In this document: one piece after another, positions 22,228 through 24,126 of the stretch
Position numbering within the stretch: the stretch's first letter is position 1
Layout of the letters: every line of letters begins with the position of its first letter
Assembly (NCBI RefSeq): GCF_001562015.1
Contig: NZ_LASA01000059.1
Coordinates: 37,048-75,085, forward strand
Reading direction: 5' to 3'
Origin: Endozoicomonas arenosclerae
GTDB lineage: Bacteria > Pseudomonadota > Gammaproteobacteria > Pseudomonadales > Endozoicomonadaceae
DNA: 38,038 nt
Program-made: the position numbers and the translations under genes
Notes under the pieces: generated by a model
Told to the model about the DNA's origin: nothing
The model's input: the letters and a program-made list of their open reading frames with translations, nothing else
Databases searched by the model: none

Positions 22228-22614
22228 CTAGACCGGTGATTGAGAAATATGCTGGTGCCGAATCAGCCATTGGCCTGAATGGTTTTCCAGAAAAACACTG
22301 ACTCTGATTCGGGTATCTTCAGAACCTTTGACCTGCAAGATCATGCACAGGCAGGCGGCTTCACCAAACTGGTAAACAACAGGCTCTCCCATTTCTGCTT
22401 CAAAAGGTTCACTGGAGTTAAAATAATCCGTAAACCTTTGCCTTAGTGCTTCCCGATCATTCAGATTGATATGTAAACCAAAACTGTGGGGTTCATCGTC
22501 GGTAACAAACAACGACATGATGCCATGAACGTCCTTTGTCTGAATGTAATGATCATACTGCTTAACAATATGAAGAAAGGGGGTAAGCGACTCACCTGAA
22601 AGCTTCACAGCCAT
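22228..22614 (-). CDS. NTF2-like (SnoaL/DUF4440-type) small protein
   Basis: A 128-residue protein with the layout of an NTF2-like fold: N-terminal helices (TPFLHIVKQYDHYIQTKDVHGIMSLF, in two parts), then DREALRQRFTDYFN and C-terminal strands ending SGQWLIRHQHIS. Members include ketosteroid-isomerase-like enzymes and ligand-binding proteins; the ligand cannot be deduced here. There is no signal peptide. A strong terminator lies immediately downstream, and the MITE-like element starts 55 bases upstream of its start codon, so the element may lie in or near its promoter. Confidence 0.78.
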   Translation of the reverse strand: MAVKLSGESLTPFLHIVKQYDHYIQTKDVHGIMSLFVTDDEPHSFGLHINLNDREALRQRFTDYFNSSEPFEAEMGEPVVYQFGEAACLCMILQVKGSEDTRIRVSVFLENHSGQWLIRHQHISQSPV

Positions 22615-22668
22615 AACAGAAAACCTCTGGAATCTACGTCTCAGTAGCCACTAAGGGTAGTCTATGTG

Positions 22669-22694
22669 TAGGGCGCGTTCTCAATTATTCATGG
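22669..22694 (+). repeat. Left terminal inverted repeat
   Basis: 26 bases, perfect complement of 22911-22936. Confidence 0.85.
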
Positions 22695-22910
22695 GCTCAG
22701 TGCTGCCGTAAAGGGGTCAGATACAAGGAAGACTTGCGCTGGTGTAGTTCCTCTACATCAAGCAAGCTCTGAGGCAGTAGATGGCCCCTTTACGGAGCAT
22801 CCGAAGGACTCTTTCAGGAGCATCCATTGCAGCGTTCCAACAGATTGAAAGATGTTTATATTCCTGCACTGTTGCGCCTTGCACTGAATGCTCCTGAAAA
22901 GAGCTGAGCT

Positions 22911-22936
22911 CCATGAATAATTGAGAACGCGCCCTA
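22911..22936 (-). repeat. Right terminal inverted repeat
   Basis: 26 bases, perfect complement of 22669-22694. It ends 110 bases before the start of the TPR/DUF218 lipoprotein gene. Confidence 0.85.
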
Positions 22937-23046
22937 TTTGTGGATAACCGAAGCCTCCCGTTATTGTTTGATTTGTATCAATTCTGTCCATTCAGTCGCT
23001 GCTTATTATGGCATCAACTCCTTTTCTTATTTCTGGATTCTACTGA

Positions 23047-24126
23047 ATGCGCTCACTCCTGAAGCCCCTCGTTCTGGGAATGGCTCTCTCCACTGCTTTG
23101 GTTGGTTGTACTTCACTGACTGAGCAGCCTGCCTCTACGCCTTCTTTTGAACAGCAGAAACAGATCAATGATCTGGTTCAAACCGGGATGTACTACTACT
23201 GGAACGGTGGTGATCTCAAAAAGGTTGAACAGGAATTCTTCAAAGGCATCACCCTGAAGGGGAAGTTTGATGTTGTTGAAGCTTCTTTCGAACAGGCCAG
23301 TGAACTGGCGCCTAACCGTCTGGATCTGCGCTTTGGTATTGCTTCCACCCAGATCATCCAGAGCAAGGTCGACGACGCCATTAAAACCTATGAAAGTATT
23401 CTGGAGCTGGATCCGGAAAACTTTGATGCGGGTATTCTGGCAGCTGCCTACAAAAAAGTGTCTGGCGATATGGAAGGCTATAAGGCTGAAATGGCGGATC
23501 TGGGGCAACGTTACCCGGAACAGACAGCCGATTACCTGAGCACTTTTGAACGTACAGATACTTTCATGGCTACTGAGCTGAACACCAAGGCATCAACCAG
23601 TAAAGAGAAGAATCATACGATTGTGACTCTGGGCTATGCCCTGTCTCCTGAAGGCGAAATGCGTCAGCCTCTGATTGATCGTCTGGAGCAGACTCTGGCT
23701 GCAGCCACTAAAAATCCTGAAGCGACCGTCATCGTCAGTGGGGGTGTGCCCAATGGTGGTGTGACTGAATCTTTCCTGATGAAGCAGTGGCTGGTTGAGA
23801 AAGGTGTAGCGGCAGATCGTATCTACATGGACGACAAAGCCAAAGATACCGTGGGCAACGCGATCTACTCCACCGAGATTATGAAAGAGCTGGGTACAGA
23901 ACATGTCACTCTGATTTCTTCTGCCAGCCACATGCGTCGTGCTTTGAGTATTTTTGCTGAAGTGGCCGATCGTGAAAATGCAGAGATCAGCTTCGATAAC
24001 CTGGTCGCTATGGATTTCGATACTATGGAAGAAGCGATGACCGTTTCTGCAAATGAATCACTGGTTATCTACCGAGATATGCTTCGTGGATCTGGCATCT
24101 GGGCTTATCCGGGCCTGCAGATTTAA
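23047..24126 (+). CDS. TPR-containing DUF218/YdcF-like lipoprotein
   Basis: A 359-residue lipoprotein: the signal ends in lipobox LVGC with Cys21. Residues about 75-170 contain tetratricopeptide-like helices (DVVEASFEQASELAPNRLDL, DDAIKTYESILELDPENFDA). Residues about 190-350 form a DUF218 (ElyC/SanA/YdcF) domain: HTIVTLGYALSPEGEMRQPL, ATVIVSGGVPNGGVTESFLM, VAADRIYMDDKAKDTVGNAI, VTLISSASHMRRALSIFAEV. DUF218 proteins are linked to envelope integrity and peptidoglycan precursor metabolism; the reaction is not settled. Its stop overlaps the convergent queG stop by 4 bases. Confidence 0.87.
   Translation: MRSLLKPLVLGMALSTALVGCTSLTEQPASTPSFEQQKQINDLVQTGMYYYWNGGDLKKVEQEFFKGITLKGKFDVVEASFEQASELAPNRLDLRFGIASTQIIQSKVDDAIKTYESILELDPENFDAGILAAAYKKVSGDMEGYKAEMADLGQRYPEQTADYLSTFERTDTFMATELNTKASTSKEKNHTIVTLGYALSPEGEMRQPLIDRLEQTLAAATKNPEATVIVSGGVPNGGVTESFLMKQWLVEKGVAADRIYMDDKAKDTVGNAIYSTEIMKELGTEHVTLISSASHMRRALSIFAEVADRENAEISFDNLVAMDFDTMEEAMTVSANESLVIYRDMLRGSGIWAYPGLQI

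Follow-up and report, generated by a model that had tools for sequence, protein, structure and literature searches.

Background

The usual picture of miniature inverted-repeat transposable elements (MITEs) is one of ends that stay constant and an interior that is free to vary. A non-coding unit of 268 bp in the genome of Endozoicomonas arenosclerae, whose ends match perfectly and whose interior is folded over most of its length, raises the question of whether it moves as a MITE, which enzyme could move it, and whether the folded interior takes part in its propagation. The unit lies in the window analyzed here, that is, the whole stretch of 38,038 nucleotides taken from contig NZ_LASA01000059.1, to which all coordinates refer. 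A first-pass annotation, made from the letters alone, described it as MITE-like and suspected that the structured interior matters beyond the ends. In this work we analyzed the unit and its relatives in its own genome (G000), in other genomes of the Endozoicomonadaceae and in more distant bacteria; genomes, loci and contigs of the own genome carry G, L and C numbers, respectively. From these analyses we conclude that the MITE family is real and widespread, and that it is unusual in having a near-constant hairpin apex and junction base together with ends and stems that change strongly and yet remain matched. The unit is probably a non-autonomous transposon mobilized in trans by an IS5-family transposase, with a duplication of 2 bp, mostly TA, at least in the Endozoicomonadaceae.

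Architecture and folding of the unit

The unit overlaps no open reading frame (ORF) of at least 100 amino acids, the length from which the ORFs of the window were listed. Since its flanking ORFs are 22228-22614 (minus strand, SnoaL-like) and 23047-24126 (plus strand, DUF218/TPR), it is placed in a divergent intergenic region, in agreement with the annotation, which had called it non-coding and located it between the promoters of two genes. Its features are listed in Table 1.

Table 1. Features of the unit, in window coordinates
Feature	Position	Strand	Basis or remark
Whole MITE copy	22669..22936	.	268 bp including TA at both outer edges
Left terminal inverted repeat, 26 nt	22669..22694	+	Arm match; TA at 22669-22670 is a probable target duplication, from the edge statistics of relatives
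Right terminal inverted repeat, 26 nt	22911..22936	-	Arm match; TA at 22935-22936
CTCAG, base of the hairpin junction, nearly invariant	22696..22700	+	A3 alignment, columns 29-33
CTGAG, partner of 22696-22700	22904..22908	+	A3 alignment, columns 272-276
Hairpin 1 (HP1)	22706..22795	+	Arm match, fold, A3 alignment
HP1 apex, GTGTAG(N5)CTACATCAAG	22742..22762	+	A3 alignment
Small hairpin TCC-GAA-GGA, 9 nt, between HP1 and HP2	22800..22808	+	Fold, A3 alignment
Hairpin 2 (HP2)	22812..22899	+	Arm match, fold, A3 alignment
HP2 apical motif, TTGAAAGA-X-N(4-5)-X'-TATTCCTGC, recurs across genera	22845..22867	+	Motif scans

The perfect 26-base ends, the TA boundaries and the two long internal hairpins that had been proposed were all recovered: the terminal arms, separated by 216 nt, are 100% complementary, the HP1 arms (22706-22724/22777-22795) 84%, and the HP2 arms (22812-22831/22880-22899) 90%. 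Within the window, two sites match an 18-mer of the terminal inverted repeat with no more than 3 mismatches; 100 shuffles gave no such site. The predicted RNA fold reaches -149.1 kcal/mol on the plus strand (z -14.6) and -143.4 kcal/mol on the minus strand (z -12.7), and the fold as single-stranded DNA -86.4 kcal/mol (z -14.9); in each case none of 200 dinucleotide shuffles was as low, and the folding that the annotation had suggested as a check therefore sets the unit far apart from shuffled sequences on either strand. The HP1 apex recurs with the same shape and other letters in a Lacimicrobium locus (L060).

Copies, modular forms and distribution

By blastn, the own genome contains five copies (on C58, C240, C31, C234 and C84), which were aligned by MAFFT, and two of nine other genomes of the genus contain one copy each. 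The own genome carries, besides these, two end-only forms (66 and 73 bp) and three lone ends. The genome-wide search recommended by the annotation thus identified a repeat with copies in relatives, and not a single copy with its terminal repeat occurring nowhere else, which was the outcome named as contrary to the MITE reading. The unit is short, carries no transposase gene, has terminal inverted repeats and exists in several copies, as expected of a MITE.

The pattern GAAAGA-N(4-9)-TATTCCTGC matched in 9 of 37 genomes of the family (reversed control, 1 of 37); 50 places were listed and part of them were read. Four places that were read turned out not to be elements (L024 in G014, L034 in G026, L042 in G006 and L043 in G032), and the number of genomes with elements is therefore given as eight. 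A stricter hairpin motif identified 56 stretches in the genome collection, distributed across the Gammaproteobacteria (Endozoicomonas, Parendozoicomonas, Sedimenticola, Cocleimonas, Lacimicrobium, Bowmanella, and bins of Chromatiaceae and other Gammaproteobacteria), as well as in one bin classified only as Pseudomonadota. Viral contigs (IMG/VR), plasmids and phages gave no match to the element. At gathering score, Rfam gave no match in the window and, in 12 further loci, only three tRNAs located outside the elements; the hits of a further Rfam scan were all far below gathering score.

The arms of the elements were located by a 13-mer arm search; local alignment with cheap gaps placed the edges in the flanks. 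Matched arms outside the HP2 apex were found by the arm script in 59 of 69 distinct core hits, and in several of the 59 (e.g. L040, L073, L075, L081, L084, L090, L093, L102, L105) they are not the outermost ends. Among the ten hits without arms, L053, L065, L067, L082, L083, L094, L100 and L108 are near the end of the available DNA, and in L026 and L068 no arm pair passed the 13-mer arm search. The family occurs in three forms: ends only (about 52-82 bp); ends with HP2 (about 155-195 bp, and up to 265 bp in Sedimenticola, with another insert); and ends with HP1, the small hairpin and HP2 (about 260-303 bp).

Terminal repeats, edges and empty sites

The terminal repeats are of several types, which include TAGGGGCTGTTGACGTTT, TAGGTTCTGTTGACATAAG and, in Sedimenticola, TAAGGGCTCGCGAAACAATAACT, with others in Lacimicrobium, Bowmanella and Cocleimonas; within the Endozoicomonadaceae the outer ends mostly retain AGG..CTGTTGA. 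Matches to the end pattern TAGGNNCTGTTGANNT on the two strands numbered 74 + 81 in G013, the genome richest in copies, 33 + 37 in G018, 10 + 11 in G032, 4 + 4 in G000, 3 + 2 in G004 and 1 + 2 in G006, and the reversed pattern, with both strands summed, gave 1, 2, 0, 0, 1 and 4 matches in the same order, so that the count in G006 is no better than its control.

Among 39 end-paired copies of the CTGTTG type, 32 have TA at both edges and the remaining seven comprise five CA/TA (both orientations counted), one TA/CA and one GA/TT; these counts are partly biased, as the loci of 14 of the 39 copies were retrieved with a pattern that itself contains TA, and among the 25 copies fetched otherwise 20 are TA/TA. 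An empty site was found for the E. cretensis copy L056 in E. elysicola (G018), in which the left flank (...GACC) and the right flank (AGTACTG...) are joined as GACCAGTATTG. Counted by eye, the net insert is 263 = 261 + 2 bp; over the whole interval between the two flank alignments E. elysicola is 267 bp shorter, and identity in the flanks is no more than 72% and 83%. At the edges stand CA and TA, one C/T change away from a perfect duplication. In a second comparison (L025 with G026) the interval is 269 bp shorter and the edges are not readable. For the copy of the window, G008 retains the flank through the TA at 22669-22670 and G009 to just before it; these genomes display only the left junction, given that they do not have the DUF218 gene and their flank runs into queG. 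The best reading of these data is that insertion probably duplicates 2 bp, mostly TA.

Compared with G008 and G009, in which queG directly follows the SnoaL-like gene, the MITE forms the left edge of a larger segment (22671-24120) that also carries the DUF218/TPR gene.

An IS5-family element with related ends

The genome G004 has, at two places, an 824-bp unit with the paired ends TAGGTTCTGTTGACGT and TAGGTTCTGTTGACAT. The one that was read (L124) encodes an IS5-family transposase of 251 amino acids, which matches NF033580 with 266 bits (cut-off 110), and it is an autonomous insertion sequence (IS) that shares its ends with family members of the AGGTTCTGTTGAC type. The NF033580 IS5-family elements found here presumably belong to an IS427-like subgroup. 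They resemble the MITE in the GGNNCTGTTGAC form of the ends (that of related copies), in the TA edges and in having an autonomous copy in the genus; in contrast, the unit has no transposase gene, its end differs from that of the IS that was found, and the IS has no branched hairpins. Two further loci point in the same direction: G018 has a transposase fragment enclosed by two end-like sequences, 407 bp apart and each at 3 mismatches (L140), and in G006 a broken IS5-type element has at one end AGGGGCTGTTCACAATTA, which is 4 of 18 letters off the end of the window's unit, and TTCACAATTAA at the other. Matches of the grade of AGGGGCTGTTCACAATTA arise by chance in the end-like scan, and the weight of this case comes from the position at the end of the element and from the matching TTCACAATTAA on the opposite side.

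In the own genome no IS was found with the end type of the unit. At up to 2 mismatches the end pattern matched there two ends on C58, two ends on C31 and one other site (control, 1 match), and the IS5-type loci of this genome have either unrelated ends or end-like matches at 3-4 mismatches (L147, L153, L155), which is chance level for the scan. Three of these loci, on C3, C244 and C240 (L141, L150, L151), contain frames of 327 amino acids with the unrelated inverted ends GGAACCTGCGAATA. Besides G004 and G006, the transposase search covered the own genome, G018 and G032, which yielded only fragments or distant matches of the NF033580 type, and five genomes from other lineages (two Sedimenticola metagenome-assembled genomes, one Lacimicrobium and two Bowmanella), which yielded no match. 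The terminal repeats of the other lineages were tied to no IS. A full-length IS with the same ends, for which the annotation had recommended a search, thus exists in the genus for the ends of related copies, in G004, and was not found in the own genome for the end type of the unit. Mobilization of the family by an IS5-type transposase in the Endozoicomonadaceae is supported for related end types, as judged from shared ends, and the initial reading of a TA-flanked MITE gains from the copies in the own genome, the empty site in a relative and this genus-level IS.

Matched change in stems and ends

To describe how the family varies we used an alignment (A3) of 28 full-length elements of the Endozoicomonadaceae; it does not contain the copies that are end-only, HP2-only, enlarged (L109, L112, L116, L117), unread (L122) or from other lineages. 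RNAalifold proposed 95 pairs, of which 67 have changed on both sides. Under this structure 96.3% of 2655 cells are paired, against 77.9% in shuffles, a figure that is favoured by the derivation of the structure from the same alignment; the covariation score is 0.530 against 0.185 in shuffles, and at most 0.110 when the partners are slid by 1-3 columns. Further pair types are scarcely more numerous than in shuffles (132 against 123.4; 15 of 500 shuffles reach this number).

With two pairs of more than 14 G-U cells excluded (columns 50/120 and 202/244), the ratio of G-U to A-C mismatches on the plus strand is 5:10 in the ends, 45:14 in HP1 (13 of the 45 from a single, mainly wobble pair, columns 70/97), 2:1 in the small hairpin and 10:24 in HP2; since the fold permits G-U and not A-C, predominantly A-C pairs are absent from this count by construction. 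There is no consistent G-U bias across the element. Of 71 cores, 69 have a Watson-Crick pair closing the HP2 apex (TA 37, CG 29, GC 3), and in none is the closing pair G-U. The loop of the small hairpin reads GNA in 23 of the 28 elements, TNC, its complement, in four and GGG in one, a pattern that occasional inversion of the loop would produce.

Among changed pairs, those with coordinated changes number 3 of 16 where identity is at least 95%, 35 of 121 at 90-95%, and 2539 of 3491 at 55-60%; non-coordinated changes increase from about 3 per comparison to a plateau of about 9-13, the comparisons being non-independent. In two pairs of orthologous copies, both without HP1, we found no coordinated change and 4 to 10 one-sided changes, depending on the pair and the fold, and only two positions differ in a third pair (L054/L096). 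Correction of the arms in place was considered, and the two pairs with one-sided changes only do not support it. As both decayed one-sidedly, we read the data as matching that is kept in the mobile lineage and fixed copies that decay; the matching of the arms seems to be kept in the lineage that moves. Homogenization of arms and inversion of the spacer are effects of template switching, according to the accessible text of PMC8604942 and PMC8794818.

In the A3 alignment the apex of HP2 and the junction base show 0.036 and 0.041 differences per site, respectively, and the ends and stems 0.339 to 0.451; the low variation of the apex is partly a selection of the sample, since most members were found via the HP2 apex motif. 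Eight full-size copies retrieved solely through their ends (L110, L112 twice, L114, L115, L116, L117 and L119), from 14 regions chosen among more than 150 end matches, all have TTGAAAG on one strand, some of them with enlarged or altered loops. In the three close copies of the own genome the differences per site are 0.188 in the ends, 0.074 in the HP1 stems and 0.015 in the outer stem of HP2, and the HP1 apex (0.196) and the small hairpin (0.222) are as variable as the ends. The HP2 apical motif is common to elements with unrelated terminal repeats in the Endozoicomonadaceae, Sedimenticola, Lacimicrobium and Cocleimonas. With internal stems that covary and an apical motif that recurs across genera, the early suspicion that the structured interior matters proves justified.

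Explanations for the folded interior

In the reading that we favour, a MITE moved in trans, an NF033580-type transposase would recognize the terminal inverted repeats, mobilize the element and duplicate 2 bp, mostly TA. While the element itself propagates, its nested hairpins may function at the DNA level, either as cruciforms or in a single strand, and only copies with matching arms would leave descendants. Template switching between the arms could generate both the two-sided changes and the flips of the small-hairpin loop, the HP2 apex would be a putative binding site for a protein needed in propagation, and the SnoaL-like and DUF218 genes may be affected as a by-product.

The very strong fold on either strand and the strong covariation also agree with a structured non-coding RNA, either a regulator or an mRNA-processing element, spread by transposition and with stems kept by selection on the transcript. 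The G-U excess of HP1, to which columns 70/97 contribute 13 of 45 cells, speaks for such an RNA, and the available parts of PMC2229807 and PMC10969869 describe Correia and ERIC RNAs that are processed in mRNAs. We nevertheless consider this explanation unlikely, given that the ends and HP2 have the opposite bias although the plus-strand fold admits G-U, that copies show no clear orientation relative to tandem genes (see below), that no Rfam family matches over the element at gathering score in the window or the 12 loci, and that the presence of the element is patchy, with the pattern in few genomes of the family and elements read in fewer.

It is also doubtful, at the level of the folded-RNA explanation, that the element is recognized by its structure, by an enzyme that would read the HP2 apex together with the CTCAG/CTGAG base, the ends needing only to pair with each other. 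One apical motif under quite different terminal repeats in four lineages, the absence of an NF033580 match in the five genomes outside the Endozoicomonadaceae, the closing pair of the apex, which is kept Watson-Crick with three pair types, and the close copies of the own genome, in which the ends differ more than the HP1 stems and the outer stem of HP2, are all in favour of it. On the other side, the ends of the Endozoicomonadaceae copies mostly follow the motif that matches the IS5-family IS, end-only copies without HP2 exist (these may be deletion products), and the HP1 apex and the small hairpin of the same close copies vary like the ends. A more general proposal, which we likewise hold to be improbable, is a class of mobile DNA whose recognition would depend on a folded core, made up of the HP2 apex and the junction, instead of on the ends, and in which the repeats would drift freely but in lockstep, one arm being repeatedly rewritten from the other during transposition; if true, folded-core recognition would explain why distant Gammaproteobacteria carry the same core within wholly different terminal repeats. 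Recognition by shape applies to integron attC sites, which act as a folded single strand of conserved structure and free sequence, and their likeness to the unit, in a structure that is kept while the sequence is free, is an analogy only. HP2 alone could be a hairpin parasite in its own right that invaded several MITE families of no common origin, as might be suggested by its presence both in elements with HP1 and in elements lacking it, and within terminal repeats of different types; this is very improbable, as 59 of 69 cores have further matched arms, even if these are not outermost in several cases (L040, L075, L084, L093, L102, L105).

Genomic context of the copies

At a score of 9/12, three promoter-like matches were found in 22550-23100, against a shuffle mean of 0.6. 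Two of them lie inside the unit and face outward (22684-22712, minus strand; 22894-22921, plus strand), and are partly built from the terminal repeats; as matches to a promoter pattern they give a weak hint of possible regulation of the neighbouring genes. By a crude ORF rule, 57 copies were classified as overlapping a long ORF (7), between tandem (25), divergent (14) or convergent (6) genes, or at edges (5), and the orientation relative to tandem genes was the same in 14 copies and opposite in 11. These counts suit a selfish element better than a strand-specific RNA.

Relation to known elements

Several known repeats share features with the unit. As described in the accessible parts of PMC2229807 and PMC10969869, the Correia or NEMIS elements of Neisseria are also small non-coding units with TA ends and a folded transcript, and they have long terminal repeats (24 bp, PMC2229807) and forms with and without an internal segment, as here; in contrast, and comparing by description only, the unit has two long hairpins and a small one, covarying stems and an apex motif that crosses genera. 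The ERIC/IRU and other enterobacterial repeats are alike in TA edges and high pairing, but ERIC/IRU, in the description available in PMC2229807, is 127 bp long, with a terminal repeat of 7 bp and one unbranched stem-loop. The CIR elements of Caulobacter and Brucella have two independent hairpin arms and a conserved loop motif, and in the same partial source are described without end-to-end pairing and with another motif. A Thiomargarita MITE paper (PMC4853749) is a candidate precedent whose available text contains no element sequence to compare. In the open-licence literature, and with no claim of absence from print, we found no mention of MITEs in Endozoicomonas, no mention of miniature inverted-repeat elements in Sedimenticola, and nothing evidently related to MITEs in combination with compensatory change, a cruciform and a transposase.

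In this family an apex of the interior recurs over genera, and the ends and stems change in matched fashion. The family is a good natural test case for what keeps long DNA hairpins perfect, be it selection at each transposition or template switching; PMC8794818 raises this question for RNA genes. It offers dozens of end matches per genome, flanks able to date insertions, and orthologous pairs.

Rearranged and enlarged copies

Some copies have been altered. In G013, one copy is split in HP1 by an IS1380-family element with a transposase of 480 amino acids (L109:444-2458), and the enlarged copies L112, L116 and L117 of the same genome have extra stretches in HP1 and/or the HP2 apex, seemingly partly palindromic. 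The copies L003, L004 and L050 share a similar addition of ~14 nt (GGCT..GCGCCCC) beside the small hairpin. In L057 and L114, two element ends stand back to back with one common TA, as if one element had inserted at the edge of the other.
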